A DNA stretch of 39,282 nt, from positions 1 through 39,282 of the forward strand of contig JAQUPA010000004.1 in assembly GCA_028716825.1 (NCBI GenBank), in the 5' to 3' direction. Position 1 is the stretch's first letter. Each line of letters opens with the position of its first letter. Of the stretch, positions 3,645 through 21,938 are shown piece by piece. A program made the position numbers and the translations under genes. The DNA comes from Candidatus Paceibacterota bacterium (lineage in GTDB: Bacteria; Patescibacteriota; Minisyncoccia; Minisyncoccales; GCA-002788555). The notes beneath the pieces were generated by a model. It saw only the letters and a program-made list of their open reading frames with translations, made no database searches and had not been told where the DNA came from.

Positions 3645-3755
3645 TTGACAATTTATACTAATTACACTATGATAACAAATCAAGAAAGGTGATATTTCAT
3701 TACTTGTAGTACTTTGAAAACTAAACACACTACAACCTAAAAAAGGAGATAGACG
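3645..3755 (+). promoter_or_regulatory. Consensus sigma-70 promoter and leader of the synthetase-like genes
   Basis: TTGACA (3645-3650), a 17-nt spacer and TATGAT (3668-3673) form a near-perfect sigma-70 promoter, unusual for this window. The leader contains a 7-bp inverted repeat (TTGTAGT 3704-3710, ACTACAA 3729-3735). It ends in a strong Shine-Dalgarno AAGGAG (about 3744-3749) a few bases before the ATG at 3756. There are no T-box features. Confidence 0.75.
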
Positions 3756-5159
3756 ATGAAAACCCCGGTAGATGTAATGCACGCGCCTGCCTCCTGTTTC
3801 TTCGTTCTGAATTCTTCGGGCGTTGAGGAGGCGTTGCCGGTTAACGGCAACTACGAACAGTTCGACCACGGACTCAGCAAGCTTATTATGGCAACGGTCG
3901 GGTCTGACAAGTCCGTCCACTTCGCTCGCCACATGGATATAATCCAAAGGCTCGAATGGGCAGATTATGAACCGGCCAGCGACAAAGGCCACTTCCGATA
4001 CTATCCGAACGGTGCCCTGGTCTACCAACTCCTGGTGGAGTGGTGCGAACAGGTTGCCGTCGATGCTTTCGGAGCGTTACCATTGAGAACGCCGTTTCTG
4101 TATCTCTCGGACAGCCAAGCCGTAAAAGACCAGATAGGAATGTTCGAGAAAAATGTCTACCCTGTTTACGGAGGGCGAAATCACGAAGAGTTTGTTCTCC
4201 GCTTCAACGATGACCTGGGCCTCTTCGCTGTGATGAAAGACTCGCAGCTAACGCACAGGCATCTGCCCTTCAGAATCTACGAACACACGCCGAGCTTCCG
4301 CTACATTCAAAGCGGGACATTGGCCGGGATCAGTAAAGGGAGATATTTCTCTCTGACTGATGTCCATAGTTTCTGCGCAGACATGAAACAGGGATTTGCG
4401 GAGTATGCGGAGATCCAAAAAATTCTGACGGCGGTTGCCAAAGGTGTCGGCATAAACCTTGCGATACACTTCAAAGTGACGCGAGATTTCTATCCGACAG
4501 CCAAAGCCACCATGGTTGCAATGCTGTCCAGTCGGGAAAAAATGCTCGTCGAGATGATTCCCAGTCAGCGTCAGTATTGGGCGATGAAGCACATCGCCTG
4601 CACAGACCATCCGCAGAGATTATTTCACGTTCAGTTTGATCTGGATAATTCAGGGCGTTTCGGTATTAAGTATATCGCGTCCAACGGAAGCCAAAAAAAC
4701 TGCGTCATCATTCACACAGCGCTCGGTACGCCCGAGAGATGGATGGTTATTGCAATTGAAGACGCCCTGAAGAAGGATCCGCCGACTCTGCCGTTGTGGC
4801 TCTCGCCTACCCAGGTGAGAATCATTCCGGTCTCCGAAAAGAAACACATTGACTTCTGCGTCGGAGTTGCCCGCGACTTGAAGCAACACCGAATCAGGGT
4901 CGATGTCGACGAACGGAGCGAGAAGATGGGCTGGCGCATCCGCGCGGCCGAACGGGAATGGATCCCGTACATCGTGGTTTGTGGCGACAAAGAGCAAGAA
5001 GGCGCTCCTCTCTCGATGCGAGTAAGAGGAGGAAAGCAGATCCAGACCAGTGTGTCTGATCTCGCCGACCTGATCCATCGCCAGACTTCCGAAATGCCGT
5101 TCAGATCTTTGCCTGGAATGCTGGTCTCCAAAAGACCCGTGTTCAGGGGCAGGGACTAA
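3756..5159 (+). CDS. Threonyl-type class II aminoacyl-tRNA synthetase homologue, copy 1 (diverged)
   Basis: This 467-residue protein has a ThrRS-like catalytic core followed by an anticodon-binding domain, without the TGS and editing domains that make bacterial ThrRS about 640 residues. Motif 2 is degraded: FRYI at 181-184 lacks the usual Glu. Against E. coli ThrRS the first zinc ligand Cys aligns without gaps to D153, while the His ligands align to H204 (DVHSFC) and the His in VIIHT. Motif 3 keeps ER (GTPERW). From about residue 335 it is identical to copy 2. Shine-Dalgarno AAGGAG and GC-rich codon use differ sharply from neighbours, suggesting transfer. It may be catalytically impaired or have a non-tRNA role. 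Confidence 0.78.
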   Translation: MKTPVDVMHAPASCFFVLNSSGVEEALPVNGNYEQFDHGLSKLIMATVGSDKSVHFARHMDIIQRLEWADYEPASDKGHFRYYPNGALVYQLLVEWCEQVAVDAFGALPLRTPFLYLSDSQAVKDQIGMFEKNVYPVYGGRNHEEFVLRFNDDLGLFAVMKDSQLTHRHLPFRIYEHTPSFRYIQSGTLAGISKGRYFSLTDVHSFCADMKQGFAEYAEIQKILTAVAKGVGINLAIHFKVTRDFYPTAKATMVAMLSSREKMLVEMIPSQRQYWAMKHIACTDHPQRLFHVQFDLDNSGRFGIKYIASNGSQKNCVIIHTALGTPERWMVIAIEDALKKDPPTLPLWLSPTQVRIIPVSEKKHIDFCVGVARDLKQHRIRVDVDERSEKMGWRIRAAEREWIPYIVVCGDKEQEGAPLSMRVRGGKQIQTSVSDLADLIHRQTSEMPFRSLPGMLVSKRPVFRGRD

Positions 5160-5164
5160 AAGAA
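4756..5164 (+). repeat. 409-bp exact direct repeat, copy 1
   Basis: The block covers the end of the catalytic core, the whole anticodon-binding domain, the stop codon and four following bases. By eye it is base-for-base identical to 6225-6633 (offset 1469). The sequence upstream of the block differs substantially between the two genes. Confidence 0.93.
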
Positions 5165-5191
5165 CACCAACAAAACCGAAAGGAGAATCCC

Positions 5192-6628
5192 ATGAAGAAG
5201 ACTCAACGTCAGGAAATATCAGAATCGATCCAATCCAGGTTTATTATCCTTGATGCAGAAGGAAATGAGACCGAAATCTCATCCCCACCGCAGGATCTGC
5301 CCGTTTTGGAACAGAACCCGAGCCTTATGGCTATGGTTCGTGCAGAGATTATAAAAGGATTGACGGGAGTCGAACTCCCGTCAATCCGAGCAATGCAGGA
5401 TCTCGAACTGGTGGACTACGAGCCGGCCAGTGACAAGGGCCATTTTCGCTTCTACCCCAAGGGTGCGTTGATCTTCGATCTGTTGCACCGCTGGGCTGAA
5501 GAGATCGCCCTGGAACGCCTCGAGGCCTACTCCATCGAAACCCCGATCATCTACGATTGGAACGAGCCAGATATCCGTAGCCAAGCGGAGGCGTTCCATG
5601 AGCACCACTACATCGTCCGCTTGCCCGACAAGCCGGAAAAAGAGTTTATTCTCCGATTCGCCGGTGACTTCGGACTTTTCAGGATGATGCGGGATGCTCA
5701 GCTCACTCACAGACATCTGCCTGTCCGGCTCTACGAGTTCGCACCGAGCTTCCGCTACGAATCAAGCGGAAACCTTTCGGGTTTGAAGAGACTCAGGGGC
5801 TTCTGGATGCCCGACATCCACAGCTTCTGCCTCAACCTTGAACAGGGCGTGGCGGAGTATCAGGAACTCTACCGTCGCTACACCGACCTCGCAAACGGGA
5901 CGGGTTGTAGTTATGCGGTCGCCTTCAGGGTGGTGAAGGATTTCTACAAGACTCACAAGACCGAAATCGTCGAGATGATCAAGTACAGTGGCGCTCCGGC
6001 GTTCATTGAGATCCTCTCGGAGATGAAACACTACTGGGTGCTCAAGCACGAAATCAACACCATTGACGGCACCGGCGGCGTCTGCCAAACTTCGACCGTT
6101 CAGCTCGACATAAAAGATGCCTCTCTTTACGGCATCAACTATATCGATCCGTCCGGACAGAAGCATGGCTGCACCATCGTGCACAGTTCGATCGGGTCCC
6201 CCGAAAGGTGGATCTTCTCGATCCTTGAAGACGCCCTGAAGAAGGATCCGCCGACTCTGCCGTTGTGGCTCTCGCCTACCCAGGTGAGAATCATTCCGGT
6301 CTCCGAAAAGAAACACATTGACTTCTGCGTCGGAGTTGCCCGCGACTTGAAGCAACACCGAATCAGGGTCGATGTCGACGAACGGAGCGAGAAGATGGGC
6401 TGGCGCATCCGCGCGGCCGAACGGGAATGGATCCCGTACATCGTGGTTTGTGGCGACAAAGAGCAAGAAGGCGCTCCTCTCTCGATGCGAGTAAGAGGAG
6501 GAAAGCAGATCCAGACCAGTGTGTCTGATCTCGCCGACCTGATCCATCGCCAGACTTCCGAAATGCCGTTCAGATCTTTGCCTGGAATGCTGGTCTCCAA
6601 AAGACCCGTGTTCAGGGGCAGGGACTAA
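5192..6628 (+). CDS. Threonyl-type class II aminoacyl-tRNA synthetase homologue, copy 2
   Basis: This 478-residue protein shares copy 1's domain order but has a better conserved core. Motif 2 is FRYE (187-190) followed by SSGNLSGLKRLRGF, motif 3 is GSPERW (R339), and the putative metal ligands are D159 (in place of the usual Cys), H210 and H331. The D-F-G-L-F stretch and PDIH motif recall archaeal-type ThrRS more than the E. coli type. TGS and editing domains are missing, so it could not proofread by itself. The ribosome site is AAGGAG and the gap to copy 1 is 32 nt, so the two are likely co-transcribed. GC-rich composition suggests horizontal origin. Alternatives are a trans-acting ThrRS-cat or a paralogue used in a non-ribosomal reaction. 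Confidence 0.8.
   Translation: MKKTQRQEISESIQSRFIILDAEGNETEISSPPQDLPVLEQNPSLMAMVRAEIIKGLTGVELPSIRAMQDLELVDYEPASDKGHFRFYPKGALIFDLLHRWAEEIALERLEAYSIETPIIYDWNEPDIRSQAEAFHEHHYIVRLPDKPEKEFILRFAGDFGLFRMMRDAQLTHRHLPVRLYEFAPSFRYESSGNLSGLKRLRGFWMPDIHSFCLNLEQGVAEYQELYRRYTDLANGTGCSYAVAFRVVKDFYKTHKTEIVEMIKYSGAPAFIEILSEMKHYWVLKHEINTIDGTGGVCQTSTVQLDIKDASLYGINYIDPSGQKHGCTIVHSSIGSPERWIFSILEDALKKDPPTLPLWLSPTQVRIIPVSEKKHIDFCVGVARDLKQHRIRVDVDERSEKMGWRIRAAEREWIPYIVVCGDKEQEGAPLSMRVRGGKQIQTSVSDLADLIHRQTSEMPFRSLPGMLVSKRPVFRGRD
5357..5387 (+). repeat. Perfect 13-bp hairpin inside synthetase copy 2
   Basis: GGATTGACGGGAG (5357-5369) and CTCCCGTCAATCC (5375-5387) are perfect inverted arms around a 5-nt TCGAA loop, inside the N-terminal coding region. 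Copy 1 has no such structure at the aligned place, and no T-run follows. Confidence 0.75.
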
Positions 6629-6633
6629 AAGAA
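6225..6633 (+). repeat. 409-bp exact direct repeat, copy 2
   Basis: This is the second copy of the block at 4756-5164. The exact identity across 409 bp between otherwise diverged paralogues points to recent gene conversion or to a recombination-made duplicate. Confidence 0.93.
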
Positions 6634-6653: not shown

Positions 6654-6690
6654 AAAGGAGATAAGACAAAAGTTTTATCTCCTTTTTGTT
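6654..6690. terminator. Bidirectional terminator between synthetase genes and ABC operon
   Basis: AAAGGAGATAA (6654-6664) pairs with TTATCTCCTTT (6675-6685), with a T-run on the plus side. It separates two convergent transcripts. The left arm closely resembles the ribosome-binding site of synthetase copy 1 (AAAGGAGATAG). Confidence 0.75.
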
Positions 6691-6695
6691 TATTT

Positions 6696-7472
6696 TTAAT
6701 TATGGTAATACTTCCAGGGAACAACCTTTTTTTCTAATAAAGAAATAATCCAAACTATAAAAATGCTTACAACCGTAACCGACAACAGAGCAGCGTACAA
6801 TAATCCTGGCTTCAATTGATATAAGGCTACGGTAATTAATTGTCCTATGCCCGTTCTTACACCAAGCCACTCGCCTATTGTCGCACCTATAATGCTGGCG
6901 GGTATGGCTAATTTTAAAGACGTAAATAAATTTGGTAAAGAGGCGGGCAAAAAAATTTTAGTCAGCATCTGCCTTTTATTTGCATTAAGCACATTCATCA
7001 TTTCAATCGATTCCTTATCTACTTGCTTAAATGTGCTGTCCAGTCCAATTAATATCGGGAAATAGCTTATAAGAGCTGCTATAAATATTATTGAAATCGT
7101 CGAGCCTTGTCCAAACGTAAGAACTATAAGCGGAGCGAAACCGATGACCGGAAAAGAATTAATAGCAAAAGCTAAAGGAAGCAGACCAAATCTTATAGAT
7201 GAGAACAATACGAAAATAAAGAAAAACGAAAAAGCTAAAGCAAGTCCAATTAACAGCCCGATCATTGCTCTAAACAAAGTATGTTTCAATTCCAATACTA
7301 TAATTGATCCGCTAGTTGCGAATGTGTTTATAATGGTCAAAGGCGTCGGCACAAAAGTTTCAATGGACGTCTGATTCTGTGCAATCATTTTTTTGTCTGC
7401 GTTGGTCTCAACTACCTGCCACACCAGCAATATTATCAGCAGTGAAATTATGGTTATGAAGAATTTATTCAT
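6696..7472 (-). CDS. ABC transporter permease, NitT/TauT (SsuC/TauC-like) type
   Basis: This 258-residue polytopic inner-membrane protein has about six membrane segments. The cytoplasmic EAA-like loop appears around residues 155-185 (ESIEMMNVLNANKRQMLTKI, then FLPASLPN), the contact site for the ATPase. The motif GATIGEWLG near residue 195 is characteristic of the nitrate/sulfonate/taurine/pyrimidine-precursor permeases. It is the last gene of a three-gene operon and its start overlaps the ATPase stop by 4 nt (7469-7472). The substrate cannot be told from the sequence. Confidence 0.87.
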   Translation of the reverse strand: MNKFFITIISLLIILLVWQVVETNADKKMIAQNQTSIETFVPTPLTIINTFATSGSIIVLELKHTLFRAMIGLLIGLALAFSFFFIFVLFSSIRFGLLPLAFAINSFPVIGFAPLIVLTFGQGSTISIIFIAALISYFPILIGLDSTFKQVDKESIEMMNVLNANKRQMLTKIFLPASLPNLFTSLKLAIPASIIGATIGEWLGVRTGIGQLITVALYQLKPGLLYAALLSVTVVSIFIVWIISLLEKKVVPWKYYHN

Positions 7473-8251
7473 TTGTTCTGTAAAATTTTTCTTATTTTCG
7501 TTACCTCTTGAAAAAATGCGGGGTCGGATCGCAACGACGAATCTCTTTTGTCCGGAAGAGATATACTCACCACATCAATTATTGTCCCCGGAGTTTCGGA
7601 TAATATAACCACTCTGTTGGATAGAAAAACAGCTTCTTCAATATTATGTGTAACATAAATTATCGTGGATTTTGTAGAATCTTTTATTTTTAAGAGTTCT
7701 TCGTTTAATTTTTCCTTAATCATTTCATCAAGCGAAGCCATCGGCTCATCCATAAGTAATATCTTTGGCTTATATGACAACGCTCGGGCAATTGCAACCT
7801 TTTGCCGCATACCCCCTGAAAGTTGATGAGGATAATAATTTGTATATTTTTGAAGCTCGCAGAGCGAAATTAATTCATCCGATCTCTCGCAGTTCTTAAT
7901 CCTCAAGACTTCTAGAGGCAGCATTATATTTTTGCGCACAGTTCTGAAAGAAAGGAGAGATAGTGATTGTGGGATGTACCCTACCAAACATTTTTGGAGA
8001 GCATAAGAAATGTCGTTATTCTGATATTTTATATTCCCACAATCAGGCTTTATTAAGCCGCAAATTATTTTTAGTATCGTTGTTTTACCGCAACCAGACG
8101 GACCGACCATAGCCACAACCTCTCCGTCATTTATCGAAAAAGATATGTTTTTCAAAACTTCAACAGGGCGTCCTTTCTTTGTATAGCTTTTGCTAATATT
8201 TTTTATGTCGATGACGGGCGCATTCATACTTTTATTTTTCATATATAGCAT
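7469..8251 (-). CDS. ABC transporter ATP-binding protein, NitT/TauT (SsuB/TauB-like) type
   Basis: This 260-residue ATPase has Walker A GPSGCGKT (50-57), Q-loop IPQSLSLL, signature LSGGMRQK, Walker B ILLMDEPMASLD and the H-loop in IIYVTHN. It energises uptake by the neighbouring permease and substrate-binding protein. The longest start overlaps the upstream gene by 20 nt. ATG codons at 8242 and 8227 are equally plausible, and the last would start after the upstream stop. The domain motifs are all intact. Confidence 0.9.
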   Translation of the reverse strand: MLYMKNKSMNAPVIDIKNISKSYTKKGRPVEVLKNISFSINDGEVVAMVGPSGCGKTTILKIICGLIKPDCGNIKYQNNDISYALQKCLVGYIPQSLSLLSFRTVRKNIMLPLEVLRIKNCERSDELISLCELQKYTNYYPHQLSGGMRQKVAIARALSYKPKILLMDEPMASLDEMIKEKLNEELLKIKDSTKSTIIYVTHNIEEAVFLSNRVVILSETPGTIIDVVSISLPDKRDSSLRSDPAFFQEVTKIRKILQNK

Positions 8252-9293
8252 CGAGTATGGAGTAATCTGTTACGTCGCTGACTTGCGGAACGATTGGAAT
8301 CTGCCCGAGTTTTTTATATGCGTTTGCAAAATCCATAATTTGATTTTCGTAAAGCCAGCCAGGTTTTGTTTGGTCAAAAAGTGGTATTGATTTTTGAATG
8401 ACCCAAAGTTCCTGTTCTTTGTTAAATGTGGGTCCGCCGCAACGGCTGTCCAAAATATTTTCCGCTGCTATCTTTGGATTTTCTTGTACAAATTCGGTTC
8501 CTTTAATAGTTGCTTTGAGCCAGCGCTCCAAAACATCTTTTTTCTCTTGCAACACCTTATCAGTTGCTATTGCCACCATAGATTGCTGATTCCATCCTGG
8601 CAATTCCGAAGCACTTAAAAATTTATATTGAATTCCCGCTTTTTCTACTTCATAAACCTGTGTCGTCCAATAACCTGCAAGTGCATCAACTTGTCTTGTT
8701 AAAAGTGGCGTGGTATCAAATCCGACAATAACTATATCTAAATCAGAAACCGGCACATTCAGATAACTAGCTATAGCATATTGAGCAACTGAATCAGCTG
8801 TTACTCCTATTTTATATTTACTTCCGTCAGGTTTCCTTTTAGTAAAATCTTTTATACTGTTCAAACCAGAATCAGACCTAACTATAAAACCATATGGATT
8901 TTGATTCCAAAAAGCAGCGAATGCTTTTACCCTTAATTTTTCACTTTCGTTTTGCTTAGTTACTCCTCTTAGCAACGGCACCGTATCTCCGTCGATTCCC
9001 AGCGTTAAAGAATTATCCTGCGCAACAGCGTTTGTTGCTATTACAAAAGATGCTCCTACAGGACCGCCGGGCACAAGTTCCACATCCAAATTTTGCTCTT
9101 TATAAAAACCATTAACGATAGCTGAACAAACGTTTGCAAATTCTCCATTTAGCAGCCAACCGGCCTGAACTCTTACCTTTTCCATTTTTTGCGATTGTTC
9201 ACTCTTTTTAATTAGTTGATACCCCAAGTAGGCCGCGAAACCGACTAAGACCAACAAAATAATTGTAATAATTGCGATTAATGATTTTTTCAT
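8232..9293 (-). CDS. ABC transporter substrate-binding protein, NMT1/THI5-like (SsuA/TauA/ThiY superfamily)
   Basis: This 353-residue protein has one N-terminal hydrophobic segment (about residues 5-27) with no lipobox Cys, so it is probably membrane-anchored on the outer face. The NMT1-like domain begins with VRVQAGWLLNGEFANV and contains LDVELVPGGP, the typical first lobe, followed by the second lobe with VDALAGYWTTQ. Members bind aromatic sulfonates, taurine, nitrate, hydroxymethyl-pyrimidine or flavin-type compounds. The ligand here is unresolved. It is the first gene of the operon. Confidence 0.82.
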   Translation of the reverse strand: MKKSLIAIITIILLVLVGFAAYLGYQLIKKSEQSQKMEKVRVQAGWLLNGEFANVCSAIVNGFYKEQNLDVELVPGGPVGASFVIATNAVAQDNSLTLGIDGDTVPLLRGVTKQNESEKLRVKAFAAFWNQNPYGFIVRSDSGLNSIKDFTKRKPDGSKYKIGVTADSVAQYAIASYLNVPVSDLDIVIVGFDTTPLLTRQVDALAGYWTTQVYEVEKAGIQYKFLSASELPGWNQQSMVAIATDKVLQEKKDVLERWLKATIKGTEFVQENPKIAAENILDSRCGGPTFNKEQELWVIQKSIPLFDQTKPGWLYENQIMDFANAYKKLGQIPIVPQVSDVTDYSILDAIYEK

Positions 9294-15890: not shown

Positions 15891-15965
15891 TCCGGAGTAG
15901 CTCAATGGTAGAGCGGATCCCTGTTAAGGATACGGTTGCAGGTTCGAGTCCTGCCTCCGGAGCCA
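15891..15965 (+). tRNA. tRNA-Asn(GUU)
   Basis: Acceptor TCCGGAG pairs with CTCCGGA (15955-15961). The D arm is GCTC...GAGC, and the anticodon loop CTGTTAA gives anticodon GTT (15923-15925). T arm GCAGGTTCGAGTCCTGC follows. Discriminator G is followed by an encoded CCA (15963-15965). The anticodon stem has one G-A end mismatch. The 3' half is overlapped on the other strand by the end of the serine recombinase gene. Confidence 0.95.
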
Positions 15966-17429
15966 GTTAGAACACTTGTTCGCTTGAAGCATCGTATCAA
16001 ACGGTGTTTTTAAGTTAAATAAAAGCTTTTTACCTTCTAATTTAAGGTTCTGAAGTAGAAAATTGAGAAGCTGGCTTTTTTCTACCACTTCAGAACTTTC
16101 AAAGATTTCTTTGGATCTTTTAGCCAATTTTAGCACCATATTTGCTGTTAAATAGAAGTTTTCGTCGGCATTTGTATATCTTTGCATTTCTTCTTCTATT
16201 TCTGATTGTTTTTCTTTATATTCCTTTAGCTTTTTATCAAACATATCCTTAGTAATACTCGGATCATCAATCCTCATATCAAACATTCTGCTTATTCTTT
16301 GATCAAGTTGGTCGTAATTATTTCTTAATCTTCTTAATTGTTTTTTATGAAAAGCGTTTTTATTTTCATTCAGTTTTTTCAAATCTTCTGTTATTTCTTG
16401 GATCTTTTTATTGGGAACTCTTATTCCTTCTAAAATTTCATAAACTTGTTTCAGTAAATCTTCTTCTCTGATATAAACTCTTTTTTTGTGGACTCTTTTA
16501 TAATTGGTGCAACTGTAGTAAACATGACCCTTTGTTGTCTCTGGCGTTATTGTGCAACCGCATTTTTTACATTTTATAAGACCCCTGAAAATAAATGGCT
16601 TTGAAGCGTATTTAAATGGCTTCTTATGATATCCAGCCATTATCTCTTGGCATTTATCAAATAAATCTTTCTTGATTAACGGTTGATATTTATGAGGGTA
16701 TAATTCGTTTTTAACCCTCATCATGCCGTAATAAAATGGGTTTTGAAGAATATGATGTATAACGCTTTTTGTTAAATACTTAGGAGTTACATTATTGCTT
16801 TTTAATCCTAATTCTTCCATCTTGTCTTTTATTTTAAGCAATGAATAACTACCAGAAGCATACATTTCAAACATTTTAATAATTAAATGGCTTTTAGTCG
16901 AATCAGGCATAATTTCTTTGGTTTCTATTACATTGATATATCCAATAGGAGCTTTACCTATCCATTCGCCCTTTTTAATTTTAGTCTCATAAGCTCTTTT
17001 TACGTTATCACTTATTGCATCAGAATAATATTTTGCCAATCCTAAATTCATTCCAAAATGAAATTTCTCTGTTGCTGATATATTAGGAGTAATAATAAGG
17101 CTATCTGAAGCAAAATGAAGCTCTATTTCATCTTTCATCGCCAATTCATATAAATAAGCTACTCTTTTGTCAAAAACATTACGAGAAAACCTGTCTACTT
17201 TATCGAAGCAGACGACAATTTTTTCCCTAGTAGATTCTAAATATTCTAATGCTCTGTCAAAATCATCTCTTTTCGCCTTATAAGCACTTTCATCAAAACT
17301 AAATACTTCTGCTATCTCAAAATTTTTTTGATTGCAATATCTTTCGAGCCTTTCAGTTTGGGCTGGCAATGAATTCCCGGCCTCTTTTTGTTCTTCGGTT
17401 GAAACTCTAGCTAAAATTATGGCTTTCAT
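15924..17429 (-). CDS. Large serine recombinase (resolvase/invertase family integrase)
   Basis: This 501-residue protein has an N-terminal resolvase domain with catalytic Ser in ARVSTEEQ (S10) and the conserved FDKVDRFSRN block. The recombinase domain spans about 165-290. A zinc ribbon (CKKCGC...YYSCTNY) and a long coiled coil (about 340-440) complete the large-serine-recombinase layout. It catalyses site-specific integration or excision through a Ser-DNA intermediate. Its last 13 residues (WLRRQDSNLQPYP) and the TAA stop are encoded by the complement of tRNA-Asn; the stop is the complement of TTA at 15924-15926 in the anticodon loop. Its start overlaps the res stop by 4 nt. Confidence 0.92.
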   Translation of the reverse strand: MKAIILARVSTEEQKEAGNSLPAQTERLERYCNQKNFEIAEVFSFDESAYKAKRDDFDRALEYLESTREKIVVCFDKVDRFSRNVFDKRVAYLYELAMKDEIELHFASDSLIITPNISATEKFHFGMNLGLAKYYSDAISDNVKRAYETKIKKGEWIGKAPIGYINVIETKEIMPDSTKSHLIIKMFEMYASGSYSLLKIKDKMEELGLKSNNVTPKYLTKSVIHHILQNPFYYGMMRVKNELYPHKYQPLIKKDLFDKCQEIMAGYHKKPFKYASKPFIFRGLIKCKKCGCTITPETTKGHVYYSCTNYKRVHKKRVYIREEDLLKQVYEILEGIRVPNKKIQEITEDLKKLNENKNAFHKKQLRRLRNNYDQLDQRISRMFDMRIDDPSITKDMFDKKLKEYKEKQSEIEEEMQRYTNADENFYLTANMVLKLAKRSKEIFESSEVVEKSQLLNFLLQNLKLEGKKLLFNLKTPFDTMLQANKCSNWLRRQDSNLQPYP

Positions 17430-20029
17430 AATTGTAATTTCTCCCTAAATATTTTATTAAATTCTTGTTTTGTTTGATTTTCATTATAGAATGGTAAACC
17501 AATAAGTTTAAATTTGCCCTTTTCAAACAGGGTTTCAATTCTAAATTCAGATTCCACTTCTTTTAAAAAGTCTTCTTTCCACTTATCTGTATTCAATAAA
17601 TGGCTTCCTTTTGGCTCAATAAATAACTGATAAGATAGATTTTTTTTACTGCCTTTTGATTTAAGGAATAATACAAAATCCGGCTCTATTGCACTGCCAT
17701 CGCTAAATCGGTAAATCTTAAATAGGTTTTCATTTCTTAATAAATAAACGTCCTCGTATTTCTTTTTCAATTCGTCTATGGCTTGATGAATGAATTTTAT
17801 AAGATATTTTTCTTCTGACGTTCCGTAATTTTCATCATACATATACCAGTCCTGTATGCTTAAATCTAAGTTTAAATCATTATTAAGTGTTTGGCTCATA
17901 GCAATACCTCGTTCTTGGTCTTGCTCGCCAAGTAAAATTTCCAACGTCTTTGTTTTTGCTATTACTTTTATAGCGTGTCCGGTAAATTCTTTAGTTCCGT
18001 AAAATTCTTTATTGCTTGATAAAATTTTCTGTGAAAGTTCTTTTAATACGTCTAAGGCAATATCAAATTTATCTTTGTTGTTCAAATTGTCTAACTTTCC
18101 ATTTTTTGCATATAATTCAATTTCAACAAGTCCTAAATAATTATCTGCGGTTATAAATTCAGTAATTGATTTAAGCTTGGGAAAATAGCTTGATAAATTA
18201 TTAAATTGATAAAAGCCTACTTTATCTATTGCCTTTCTTAAAATATGCGGTTCAATAGTGTTTAGCTTTATATTTTTCTTTTTAAAATTGTCTTTAGCTG
18301 TCTGCTGTTTATCATCAAAAATTCCGGACTCAAAAGACTCGCCAGCCATTATTCTATATTTAAACAAAGTATCTTTAATTACATCATCAAGATTTTTTAC
18401 TCCTGAATTATCTTTTGGTTTCCATTCGTTTAAAAATATAAGCCCTTTGCTCCAAAAGGGAGTTTTTTTAATGCTGTCCTTAATTGAAACTGTCATCTCT
18501 TTTTTATTGCTTGCAATTATTCCTGTATTTCTTAATTCATTGGTCAATTCAGCTATATATCTTGAATCTGTTAAACTATGGTAGTGTAATTCTTCTAAAA
18601 CTCTTACCTCATTATCAATGTCTTCATCAAATTTTCTTTTATCTTTTATCTGCCTTGCTTCTGTTATAAAAGGATAATATCTTGCACCTCTACCTATAAG
18701 CTGTGCTTCTGATATTGTTGTGCTTCCGGATATATTATTTTTTGCATCCCTTGTTTCGTAAAGTCTGACAATATCAAATAAATTTAAAACATCCCAGCCT
18801 TCATTGAGCATATTGGTAGTAAAAATTACTCTTATCTCGTTATTATAATCTTCTAAGGTATTGACCTTAATCTGTTTTTCTTCGCTATCTGCCTTACTGT
18901 TTATTATCAAGCATTTTTCTTTAGCAAAATCGGCTTTAATTTCCTTTACTAAATTGGCAGTAGTAATTTTATTGACATTAAAATAATCAAACGCCTTTTT
19001 TATTACATCCTTGCTATTTGCTTCAAGTTTTTTTATGTCTGCAACCGTTAAGCTCCCAATCATTGAGTAGAAAGCCTGTTCAAACGCTTCAGAATCCTTT
19101 ATTTGCTTTGATTTGAATAGAATTACAGGTTTTAGTTGTATCTTGTGCTTATCGGCTATTTTACGCCTGTATTGGCTTAATATAACGGCTTGTAATGCCC
19201 TATCTTTAGCTTCCCAATCTGACTGCAGTAATTTAACATCTTTTGAAAATCCGTCTTCCCTAAAATTGGCTAAGTTATATTGATAAATAATTTTATCTGC
19301 ATATTTCCTTGCAACTGCCGGATGATTCAGCTCAACAGTTGCCGTATATTCTAACATTATGTTGTTTTTGTTTGCGTTAAAAACCTTATCAACTGTCTGC
19401 TCCCAACTTTGCTTTTCTTCAAGTTCTTCCTTATTAAGTTTTGATTTAGTTAAAGCGTTTATATGATGGGCTTCATCAGATAGGAAAACAATTTTCAAAT
19501 CCTTAAAATCTTCATGGGTTATTGTGTTTTCCTGCGGTGTGTTAAGTTTGATATGCAAGCCCTGTATTGTTGTAAAAAGGATATTTATGTTGTTTGAATT
19601 TACGGCTTCAAAATTATCAACTTCCTTAACTTCAATTTCTCTATCGTCAAAAACAATTTTATCAGTAAAAAGATGTTTACTGGCTATTTTATCTAAAAAG
19701 TTGCTCTGCGTTTTTTTAATAATATTTGTGCTATTAACAAAAAATATAAAGTTTCTATATCCTAAAGAATATAGATAAAGAATATCAGTTGCCATTAAAA
19801 GAGTCTTCCCGCTCCCAGTTGCCATATTAAAAAGCAAATGCACCGGCATTTTCTTGCCTTGATAACTGCTTAGATAATGTTCTAATCTTGTAAAAGCCTC
19901 TTTTTGATATTCTCTTATTGGATATTTTGGATTCAAATTATTTACAACGAAATCCGGGATGTCTTTTAAAAGAATTCCTTGTTTAGATAAAATATTAAGC
20001 TCGTCAACAAGTTTAATATTATTTTCCAT
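17426..20029 (-). CDS. res: Type III restriction enzyme, Res subunit
   Basis: This 867-residue protein is the helicase/nuclease of a type III system. Superfamily 2 motifs are Walker A MATGSGKT (69-76), motif II LSDEAHH, motif III YTATVEL and motif VI LIGRGARYYPF. A PD-(D/E)xK nuclease lies at the C-terminus (IEPDFVLFL...QLFIEPKGSH). With Mod it would cut DNA carrying two inversely oriented unmethylated sites after ATP-driven communication. It overlaps mod by 11 nt upstream and the recombinase by 4 nt downstream, so all three are translationally coupled. Motifs are intact and it is likely active. Confidence 0.94.
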   Translation of the reverse strand: MENNIKLVDELNILSKQGILLKDIPDFVVNNLNPKYPIREYQKEAFTRLEHYLSSYQGKKMPVHLLFNMATGSGKTLLMATDILYLYSLGYRNFIFFVNSTNIIKKTQSNFLDKIASKHLFTDKIVFDDREIEVKEVDNFEAVNSNNINILFTTIQGLHIKLNTPQENTITHEDFKDLKIVFLSDEAHHINALTKSKLNKEELEEKQSWEQTVDKVFNANKNNIMLEYTATVELNHPAVARKYADKIIYQYNLANFREDGFSKDVKLLQSDWEAKDRALQAVILSQYRRKIADKHKIQLKPVILFKSKQIKDSEAFEQAFYSMIGSLTVADIKKLEANSKDVIKKAFDYFNVNKITTANLVKEIKADFAKEKCLIINSKADSEEKQIKVNTLEDYNNEIRVIFTTNMLNEGWDVLNLFDIVRLYETRDAKNNISGSTTISEAQLIGRGARYYPFITEARQIKDKRKFDEDIDNEVRVLEELHYHSLTDSRYIAELTNELRNTGIIASNKKEMTVSIKDSIKKTPFWSKGLIFLNEWKPKDNSGVKNLDDVIKDTLFKYRIMAGESFESGIFDDKQQTAKDNFKKKNIKLNTIEPHILRKAIDKVGFYQFNNLSSYFPKLKSITEFITADNYLGLVEIELYAKNGKLDNLNNKDKFDIALDVLKELSQKILSSNKEFYGTKEFTGHAIKVIAKTKTLEILLGEQDQERGIAMSQTLNNDLNLDLSIQDWYMYDENYGTSEEKYLIKFIHQAIDELKKKYEDVYLLRNENLFKIYRFSDGSAIEPDFVLFLKSKGSKKNLSYQLFIEPKGSHLLNTDKWKEDFLKEVESEFRIETLFEKGKFKLIGLPFYNENQTKQEFNKIFREKLQL

Positions 20030-21938
20030 AGAATTGCTTGTTTATCTTTTTATCTTCAATTGAAACTTTATAAGTAGCATCGTCTATCTCGCTGTAATTT
20101 ACATACAAATGATTTTTATCTAAACATTCCATTAAAACCTGCTTTTGGTCTTTAAGTTCTAATTTTGAAAAGTCTTTTTCATCAAATTTACTTAAATCAA
20201 TCTCGTATCTAAAAAACGCTTCTTTCTGCATTTTTTTATAAATATTAGCCAGTTCTTTGGGAGTCTTGGCTTCTTGTATATTTTGCATATATTCTTCATT
20301 CCATTTTTTTATTTCAAAGTATTTAAAAGCACCATCTCCGTTCCACCCGAATGATTTTGAAATACCGCTTTGATCACCATTAATAACATTTTTTAATCTC
20401 GCCCTTGCACTGTTTTTTCCATATTCTAGTTGTTCAATGCCAATATATTGTCTTCCCATTTTATGAGCAACAGCACAAGTTGTTCCGGTTCCTGCAAAAA
20501 AATCCATCACAATATCATTATTATCATTCGTTGACATATTAATGATTCGTTCCAATAATCTTTCTGGTTTTTTTCCTTTTTTTAATGTTACACCCCCCTC
20601 TTTAGCTATGCCGTCCCAATTTATATCAGTCCAAATATCACTTAAGTATTTTACAGAAACTTCTTCGTTGTTAATCACTTTTACTTTGTTTGAAAAAAAT
20701 ACAACCTCTCCATTTTTCCATAATATTTTAGATTTTTTTGCTTTTTTAAGGACAATAAATTTATTTTTATTTTTACTAAAATATTTTTCCTTTAGTAACT
20801 TTGAAATATCTCTGACTGAGAAGATATTATTTTTATATTTAATTTGAAAACTATACAATTTTTCTTCAGAAATTTCTTTATCTTTTTTAATCTCAAAAAA
20901 TTTCTCTTTAATATTGAAAATTTTCCATGTGTTTGGATTATCATCTGGATTATCTACAAAATAACTATAGTTAGAGTCATAATTTCCGTCGATAACGAAC
21001 TGTCTATTATATTTCCAATCAGGTGATTTAGAATAACATAATATAGTTTCTTTAACTCGAACTGGTTTGTTCGCAGTAACTTTCACACCGCTTTCCGAAG
21101 TTACTTTAACAGCGATAGTAGTTATGCAATTTTCTATTCCAAATAATTCATCGAGTATTACCTTTAGATAAGCTAAGCCGTCGTCATCTATCTGAATGAA
21201 AATAGCTCCATCTTTAGACAAAAGATCTTTAGCAACTTCTAGTCTGTTCTTTATAAAAACGCACCAAGAGGACAGTTTAAAATTTGTATTATAATTAAAG
21301 CTATCCTCTTTTTTATTCTCGTGAAAGTAATATGGTGGATCAATATATATAAGTTTTATCTTTCCGGCATATTTCTTTTTTAGGGAATGCAAAGCCAACA
21401 AGTTATTGCCTTTTATAATCAAATTATCCTGTTCCGTTATTGAATCAACCTTATGCTCGCCAGACTTATCAATTTTTTTAAATTTAGTTAAAACTTTCGG
21501 TTCAAATAACCGGTCAATTTCATCTGGAGCAAGAATTTCATTGTAAAAAATCTCATCTCTTTTTACATCTTCTTTGTCTTGCCCACCCTCTAAAACGCAA
21601 TCTTTATAAGCCCAAGCTAAAACAACTTTTCCATTATCTTTTATATATTCATTGTTTTCGGTTAAGCCTATTTGATTTTTAAAAGTAGTAAACGAATCCG
21701 GTAAAAATTCTTTATTATTTATGAATTTAATAAATTTATCTTGGTCAAAAACTAAAGCCTTATTGGTTTCAATAAAGAAATGGTCTTTCATCTGCTTATC
21801 TTTCAAAAGCAAATCCAGCAAATCTCTATCCAGCTTAAAAGCCAGTTCAGAAACTTTATTTTTCAGCATCTTGCCATCGGTAAAAACTCGCTCATCTTTT
21901 TCTAATATTTTAGCTAAATCTTCGTATAAATTTTGCAT
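20019..21938 (-). CDS. mod: Type III DNA adenine methyltransferase, Mod subunit
   Basis: This 639-residue beta-class N6-adenine methyltransferase has catalytic motif IV DPPY (200-203) before the S-adenosylmethionine motif MDFFAGTGTT and the following GRQYIGIEQ. The region between them (about 270-440), lower in conservation and rich in Lys/Asn, should be the target-recognition domain that sets the methylated site for the Res-Mod complex. The recognition sequence cannot be predicted. It starts one base downstream of the small HTH gene and overlaps res. I see no long simple repeat of the kind that causes phase variation in other mod genes. Confidence 0.95.
   Translation of the reverse strand: MQNLYEDLAKILEKDERVFTDGKMLKNKVSELAFKLDRDLLDLLLKDKQMKDHFFIETNKALVFDQDKFIKFINNKEFLPDSFTTFKNQIGLTENNEYIKDNGKVVLAWAYKDCVLEGGQDKEDVKRDEIFYNEILAPDEIDRLFEPKVLTKFKKIDKSGEHKVDSITEQDNLIIKGNNLLALHSLKKKYAGKIKLIYIDPPYYFHENKKEDSFNYNTNFKLSSWCVFIKNRLEVAKDLLSKDGAIFIQIDDDGLAYLKVILDELFGIENCITTIAVKVTSESGVKVTANKPVRVKETILCYSKSPDWKYNRQFVIDGNYDSNYSYFVDNPDDNPNTWKIFNIKEKFFEIKKDKEISEEKLYSFQIKYKNNIFSVRDISKLLKEKYFSKNKNKFIVLKKAKKSKILWKNGEVVFFSNKVKVINNEEVSVKYLSDIWTDINWDGIAKEGGVTLKKGKKPERLLERIINMSTNDNNDIVMDFFAGTGTTCAVAHKMGRQYIGIEQLEYGKNSARARLKNVINGDQSGISKSFGWNGDGAFKYFEIKKWNEEYMQNIQEAKTPKELANIYKKMQKEAFFRYEIDLSKFDEKDFSKLELKDQKQVLMECLDKNHLYVNYSEIDDATYKVSIEDKKINKQFYGK

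Follow-up and report, generated by a model that had tools for sequence, protein, structure and literature searches.

Full-length threonyl-tRNA synthetases (ThrRSs) of archaea, proteins of about 620 residues, carry an N-terminal editing domain of their own that resembles D-aminoacyl-tRNA deacylases, ahead of the catalytic core and the anticodon-binding domain, and in Methanomethylicota, Hadarchaea, Nanohalarchaeota and others they have an Asp zinc ligand, set in the motif FAGDFGLF. Here we describe a pair of related genes in a Patescibacterium. A 39,282-nucleotide contig of a Candidatus Paceibacterota bacterium (assembly GCA_028716825.1, contig JAQUPA010000004.1; the whole contig, C4 in our numbering, is the window), one of 34 that make up a 648-kb genome with an estimated completeness of 98%, encodes two ThrRS-like proteins head to tail on the plus strand: copy 1 at 3756–5159 (467 residues) and copy 2 at 5192–6628 (478 residues). 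The catalytic core, FAGDFGLF and the anticodon domain are those of the archaeal enzymes, the nearest two of which are 53–54% identical, but the Patescibacteria genes begin after the editing domain. Crenarchaeal ThrRS-cat (ThrRS-1 of Aeropyrum pernix) likewise consists of catalytic and anticodon domains without editing in cis; Aeropyrum, however, has a trans editing protein, whereas none of that family was found in the window genome, and the sequence match to 3a31 is weak.

Bacteria of the Candidate Phyla Radiation (CPR), or Patescibacteria, have an archaeal-type TyrRS, and TrpRS-A together with a co-evolving protein, ORF1, with heterodimer formation or antibiotic resistance put forward as possible roles; archaeal ThrRS is not among the cases treated (PMC5370408). 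The window pair resembles TrpRS-A/ORF1 in that a rare archaeal aminoacyl-tRNA synthetase stands beside a second synthetase-like protein of unknown role, but it differs from the CPR TyrRS and TrpRS-A in concerning threonine, in belonging to class II, in that the second protein is a recognisable paralogue with an exactly shared anticodon domain, and in having no accompanying tRNA gene. Two ThrRSs per genome, one of them impaired, also occur in Anabaena, where T1 and T2 form heterodimers (PMC4787780), but these are of bacterial type and have an editing domain, into which T2 carries an insert; the sections of that paper on which we draw report no exact shared domain. Extra synthetases are further known in or near biosynthetic genes (AcmD, SbzA, SerRS2, TrpRS1), whereas the window pair lies outside any such cluster. 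In the literature searched, which did not cover many subscription papers, neither an archaeal ThrRS without editing domain from Patescibacteria is described nor the radical S-adenosylmethionine (radical-SAM) clusters in which, as we show below, such enzymes occur, nor a cluster that joins a synthetase to an amidohydrolase, two radical-SAM/SPASM enzymes and a Cys peptide. As to what the pair does, we tentatively favour the view that copy 2 is an accessory ThrRS insensitive to inhibitors, and that its partner, copy 1, has diverged and probably lacks activating ability.

A preliminary description of the locus had proposed, among other explanations, that an archaeal-type ThrRS devoid of TGS and editing domains was transferred, duplicated and then diverged, and profile searches and phylogenies bear this out. 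The two proteins score 365.1 and 450.7 bits against NF003068 (archaeal-type ThrRS, PRK03991), far above their scores against the bacterial TIGR00418. Neither reaches the curated cut-off of 484 bits for the full-length family, and the alignments begin at model position 154 or 143, so that the first 142 model positions are lacking. Profile searches of both proteins returned no TGS domain and no bacterial or archaeal editing domain, leaving the catalytic and anticodon domains typical of ThrRS-cat; PF08915, the archaeal editing domain, is absent not only from the pair but from the whole genome, where it might have marked a stand-alone editing partner (other editing folds were not searched). A scan of 84,980 genomes with an alignment-derived pattern recovered a single close relative in Patescibacteria (L033, on contig C12 of genome G271); the remaining matches were almost all archaeal ThrRSs, mostly of ~620 residues with the N-terminal part included. 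The alignment succeeded where a scan of the same collection with a single protein gave no match. That Asp replaces the first zinc-ligand Cys, as the preliminary description had pointed out, is correct, but the replacement is not peculiar to the pair: FAGDFGLF recurs beyond the window in 44 related sequences, of which 43 are archaeal, and the Asp is therefore inherited.

Trees built from the catalytic part unite copy 1, copy 2 and L033 in a clade inside archaeal ThrRS (support 95/81 and 93/86), apart from the bacterial enzymes. Copy 1 sits on a terminal branch of 1.7–1.9 changes per site, against ~0.2 for copy 2. The best tree places it outside copy 2 and L033, so that the duplication may predate the split between these two, although a sister relationship of copies 1 and 2 is not rejected (approximately unbiased (AU) test, p = 0.053). 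Judged from sequence, profiles and trees together show both genes to be of archaeal origin, with the editing domain lost. A phage or plasmid origin of the pair was also considered: DNA searches gave no match and protein searches only distant ThrRSs, and the sole viral match (L113), a full-length ThrRS from the other archaeal clade, lends phage origin no backing.

The two active sites have fared differently. Out of 65 near-invariant catalytic columns, 22 are broken in copy 1, compared to eight in copy 2 and six in L033. Copy 2 retains the Asp/His/His triad as well as motif 2 (SFRYE, 5747–5761) and motif 3. Copy 1 retains Asp/His/His and the arginines of motifs 2 and 3, but its 22 changes include R200K, T302H, two deletions and, as noted previously, the loss of the motif-2 Glu, for which we find Ile (SFRYI, 4293–4307), so that copy 1 departs from the fRxE of functional class II ThrRSs. 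AlphaFold2 models have a mean predicted local distance difference test (pLDDT) score of 90.1 for copy 2 and 83.9 for copy 1, where the motif-2 loop (185–195) falls below 50; the copy 1 model resembles ThrRS structures along its whole length, and copy 1 is thus predicted still to have the ThrRS fold. Thr and Cys contents are ordinary, which disposes of the idea that either residue is avoided in the manner of Trp-free TrpRS-A.

Might the pair simply be a foreign passenger, brought in by a mobile element and drifting? Its sporadic distribution, a transposase remnant beside the relative in G271 and the very long branch of copy 1 would all fit. A drifting pair would hardly be expected, however, to keep frames of 467 and 478 codons intact while copy 1 changed at more than one substitution per site, nor to maintain conserved motifs, promoter and ribosome-binding sites, and we regard this scenario as rather improbable. 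Since both frames are intact despite heavy change, copy 1 has probably been under selection as a protein. A role as stress back-up strikes us as more improbable still. Imagine that, like the second ThrRS of Anabaena at low zinc, the pair supplied an Asp-ligand enzyme during zinc or threonine shortage, maybe in mixed dimers. The parallel is that Anabaena T2 is editing-defective, induced by low zinc and able to form heterodimers (PMC4787780). Yet the Asp ligand is the archaeal norm of the clade rather than a zinc-saving change, and the unremarkable Cys and Thr contents also speak against it.

The two genes are identical without a single mismatch over 409 bp (4756–5164 and 6225–6633), a block comprising the end of the catalytic part, the anticodon-binding domain, the stop codon and 5 bp beyond it in both copies. 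Directly 5' of the block, identity collapses abruptly to ~17–63% per 30 bp. The edge of identity is conversion-like, in agreement with the earlier suggestion of gene conversion, made from the sudden edge between strongly differing N-terminal two-thirds and a base-identical anticodon domain. Which copy was the donor? Among pairs of Asp-type enzymes whose catalytic parts are 0.70–0.75 identical, the anticodon domain averages 0.53 identity. Copy 2 and L033 have a catalytic identity of 0.73 and an anticodon identity of 0.52; for copy 1 and L033 the corresponding values are 0.45 and 0.52. The shared anticodon domain is thus as similar to that of L033 as the history of copy 2 would predict, and copy 1 more likely received it from copy 2 than the reverse. 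Conversion in the opposite direction was rejected because the anticodon identity between copy 2 and L033 is just the value predicted by their catalytic identity.

Note that assemblers that merge near-identical repeats can sharpen an exact identity of 409 bp, and a few internal differences may have been lost. In a short-read assembly, a repeat of this kind would be expected to become one node; the tandem is nevertheless credible because the path from copy 1 through the repeat to copy 2 and through the repeat again is the natural solution of such a collapsed node, and copy-2 units could in reality number more than one. A simple assembly duplicate is a poor explanation since the flanks and the first two-thirds differ between the copies.

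Compositionally, the pair stands apart from the AT-rich genome around it, as the remark on GC-rich codons unlike those of the neighbours had implied. GC content is 0.52 in copy 1 and 0.54 in copy 2, and GC content at third codon positions (GC3) is 0.63 and 0.69, respectively, compared to 0.16–0.37 in 23 other window genes. The strong ribosome-binding sites and consensus promoter of the preliminary description are likewise present: AGGAG precedes both start codons (3744–3748 and 5181–5185), and a sigma-70-like promoter, TTGACA-17-TATGAT, recognised by its match to the consensus at 11 of 12 positions, lies upstream of copy 1 (3645–3673). A terminator-like hairpin on the same strand (an inverted repeat of 14 pairs with a T-rich tail, 6654–6685) closes the two genes, which we predict to form a self-contained unit with one promoter and one terminator for both. 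At the gathering threshold, Rfam models matched only tRNAs in the window and in locus L029 (see below), with no regulatory RNA at the ThrRS pair. Within the coding sequence of copy 2, a perfect 14-bp inverted repeat with a 3-nt loop (5357–5387) is terminator-like on the minus strand. The adjoining region, 6696–9293, encodes an NMT1/THI5-type ATP-binding cassette (ABC) transporter, also with raised GC3, and constitutes a second accessory block; among 20 relatives the permease found no close homologue and a single match, at 22% identity. Elsewhere in the window, tRNA-Asn with an abutting serine recombinase and type III restriction-modification pair (15891–21938) resembles an integrated island.

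If the archaeal-type enzyme were a housekeeping replacement that had displaced the native ThrRS, copy 2 would threonylate all tRNA-Thr while copy 1 would be a decaying or sub-functional duplicate. No bacterial-type ThrRS was found in the 98% complete genome, although 57 of 60 relatives have one, and the strong promoter and ribosome-binding sites would suit such a role. So would the tRNAs: with G1-C72, C2-G71 and U73, all three tRNA-Thr can, going by these positions, be acceptable to an archaeal enzyme. In Haloferax U73 serves as a determinant, which it does not in Aeropyrum, and elsewhere position 73 is of little weight (PMC9976931). Several observations nonetheless lead us to consider replacement unlikely. 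Two genomes of the same family have thrS after dnaE, immediately so in one case and at a distance of two genes in the other. The dnaE of the window genome lacks its C-terminal end where it meets the first base of contig C8, so that a native thrS may sit in the assembly gap; miaB, on contig C22, has a different neighbour. Loss of native thrS is possible but cannot be claimed, because its expected place coincides with a contig end. Moreover, both genes coexist in the closest relative, and the GC-rich, unadapted codons suggest recent arrival. Unusual ThrRS genes were also seen in other genomes: another Patescibacterium has, directly after dnaE, a bacterial-type ThrRS of only 408 residues without the N-terminal editing part (L031, G242:C2, 1471–2697), and on a 3.7-kb contig a ThrRS gene is broken into two or more frames (L116, G057:C6, 918–1803).

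At high stringency, archaeal-type ThrRS was confined to the window genome itself among 247 genomes of the order and to that genome and G271 among 380 genomes of the phylum; 55 genomes of the class of G271 yielded nothing beyond G271, while 384 genomes of the window genome's own class yielded G814, G826, G763 and G723. G271, a distant Patescibacterium, has a single copy (64% identity) with its own promoter and terminator, 266 bp upstream of an intact bacterial thrS; by eye, a transposase-like remnant lies upstream. The normal thrS of G271 is itself preceded by what looks by eye like a T-box-like leader (L029, 1780–1940; TGGGATGGAACCG, then a hairpin and a T run), with no Rfam match at the gathering threshold.

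In G814 and G763 the gene order is amidohydrolase (PF04909), editing-less ThrRS (477 residues), two radical-SAM/SPASM genes and a 50-codon open reading frame (ORF), whereas in G826 amidohydrolase, ThrRS and radical-SAM/SPASM gene are visible before the contig ends. These islands resemble loci for ribosomally synthesized and post-translationally modified peptides: L160 (G814:C17, 41–5090) and L162 (G763:C37, 384–12230), in both of which the peptide is seen and the latter of which has extra radical-SAM genes, a PP-loop ATPase and a methyltransferase, and L161 (G826:C47, 1863–5233), which shows the first three genes. The 50-residue Cys peptide is conserved between G814 (KGFTLQEFVTSCSTCMGKEGLL) and G763 (RGFSLREFVTSCSTCMGKEGML), with ten synonymous and four nonsynonymous codon changes in its conserved block. 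As the cluster enzymes are only 38–66% identical, the order must be old and maintained; the catalytic motifs are retained, so that the cluster-borne ThrRSs can be active. The radical-SAM/SPASM proteins appear by eye to have a PqqD-like N-terminus. G723 encodes an editing-less ThrRS of the other archaeal clade (with the Cys ligand) that also adjoins a radical-SAM gene, and a single clade uniting it with the others is rejected (p ~1e-12). Overall, a radical-SAM gene adjoins the ThrRS in all four class relatives, whereas among 81 other loci no more than 5 have any motif of this kind in the vicinity; the count ignores relatedness.

One use of cluster synthetases is the supply or transfer of amino acids (AcmD/AcmF, SbzA), and the pair might analogously provide Thr-AMP or Thr-tRNA to a pathway encoded elsewhere in the window genome, with copy 1 as a transferase-like or binding partner. 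The order conserved in three genomes, two independent captures of archaeal ThrRS beside radical-SAM genes and the precedents of SbzA and AcmF are in keeping with this, as is the presence, on contig C2 of the window genome, of a separate radical-SAM peptide locus of the FibroRumin type, accompanied by ThiF-like and acyltransferase genes. Against it, neither a peptide aminoacyl-tRNA ligase nor any other transferase could be recognised within the clusters, the genes that stand alone end in terminators of their own and are not flanked by pathway genes, and the C2 locus is on a different contig and of a different type. We doubt, on balance, that biosynthesis is the answer. The C2 locus itself (L169, G000:C2, 3407–7702) has a FibroRumin-type maturase with a Cys-rich 58-residue ORF upstream; the nearby ThiF-like and FeeM-like acyltransferase genes look foreign (GC3 0.46–0.54).

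The other described use of an extra cluster synthetase is self-resistance, as for AcmD (PMC12945691) and for SerRS2 and TrpRS1 (PMC9437257), and here our preferred reading of the pair as an inhibitor-insensitive ThrRS and its partner finds its support. The stand-alone gene adjoining an intact thrS in G271 looks like a resistance gene, which favours an accessory resistance enzyme. Archaeal ThrRS has been reported to be resistant to borrelidin because most contact residues are different, Met in place of Gln and Ser in place of Ala being among the changes (PMC4389257). In our alignment, Met and Ser likewise occupy these two contact positions in copy 2 and in the enzymes of the clusters. We propose that a two-gene unit from a sporadic Patescibacteria family of editing-less archaeal-type ThrRSs was acquired laterally. 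Copy 2 would most likely charge the host tRNA-Thr, whose features given above an archaeal enzyme can accept, and may escape small-molecule inhibitors of bacterial ThrRS, serving as an immunity or resistance synthetase, and in the radical-SAM peptide clusters of other Patescibacteria the same family may be the producer's self-protection. Copy 1 would be an old paralogue whose active site decayed or was altered while the fold was kept. Its anticodon-binding domain would have been recently overwritten by that of copy 2, with the proposed consequence that both copies bind the same tRNA, copy 1 most likely as a non-activating partner, for instance in a heterodimer.

A number of points weigh against this interpretation. 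The cluster-borne relatives form a separate subclade together with archaeal full-length enzymes, although the data do not reject a single clade for all of them (AU p = 0.13). The window, when searched, revealed no radical-SAM gene or precursor-like peptide beside the pair; location inside a producer's gene cluster is found for L160–L162. The earlier ideas of a resistance allele or of a paralogue serving another pathway do gain real support from the relatives in radical-SAM clusters. The comparison of inhibitor contacts involves two aligned positions only, we know of no inhibitor for these organisms, and an editing-less enzyme would form Ser-tRNA-Thr unless this were cleared by another enzyme.

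With greater reserve, we raise the possibility of an undescribed radical-SAM peptide system in Patescibacteria (amidohydrolase, editing-less archaeal-type ThrRS, two radical-SAM/SPASM enzymes and a 50-residue peptide with EFVTSCSTCMGKEG) whose product might act on ThrRS or be built with Thr-tRNA, the window pair being a mobile immunity module with a dead paralogue that gene conversion at the tRNA-binding domain keeps in register. The presumed lifestyle of Patescibacteria is one of growth on other cells, with a minimal genome. If this reading is true, a foreign synthetase dedicated to such a task, present in several of their lineages and tied to peptide-modifying genes, would suggest that threonylation is a target of chemical warfare or signalling. 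The pair would also offer a testable case of synthetase transfer between domains of life, loss of proofreading, and a dead paralogue held in register through conversion of its tRNA-binding domain.

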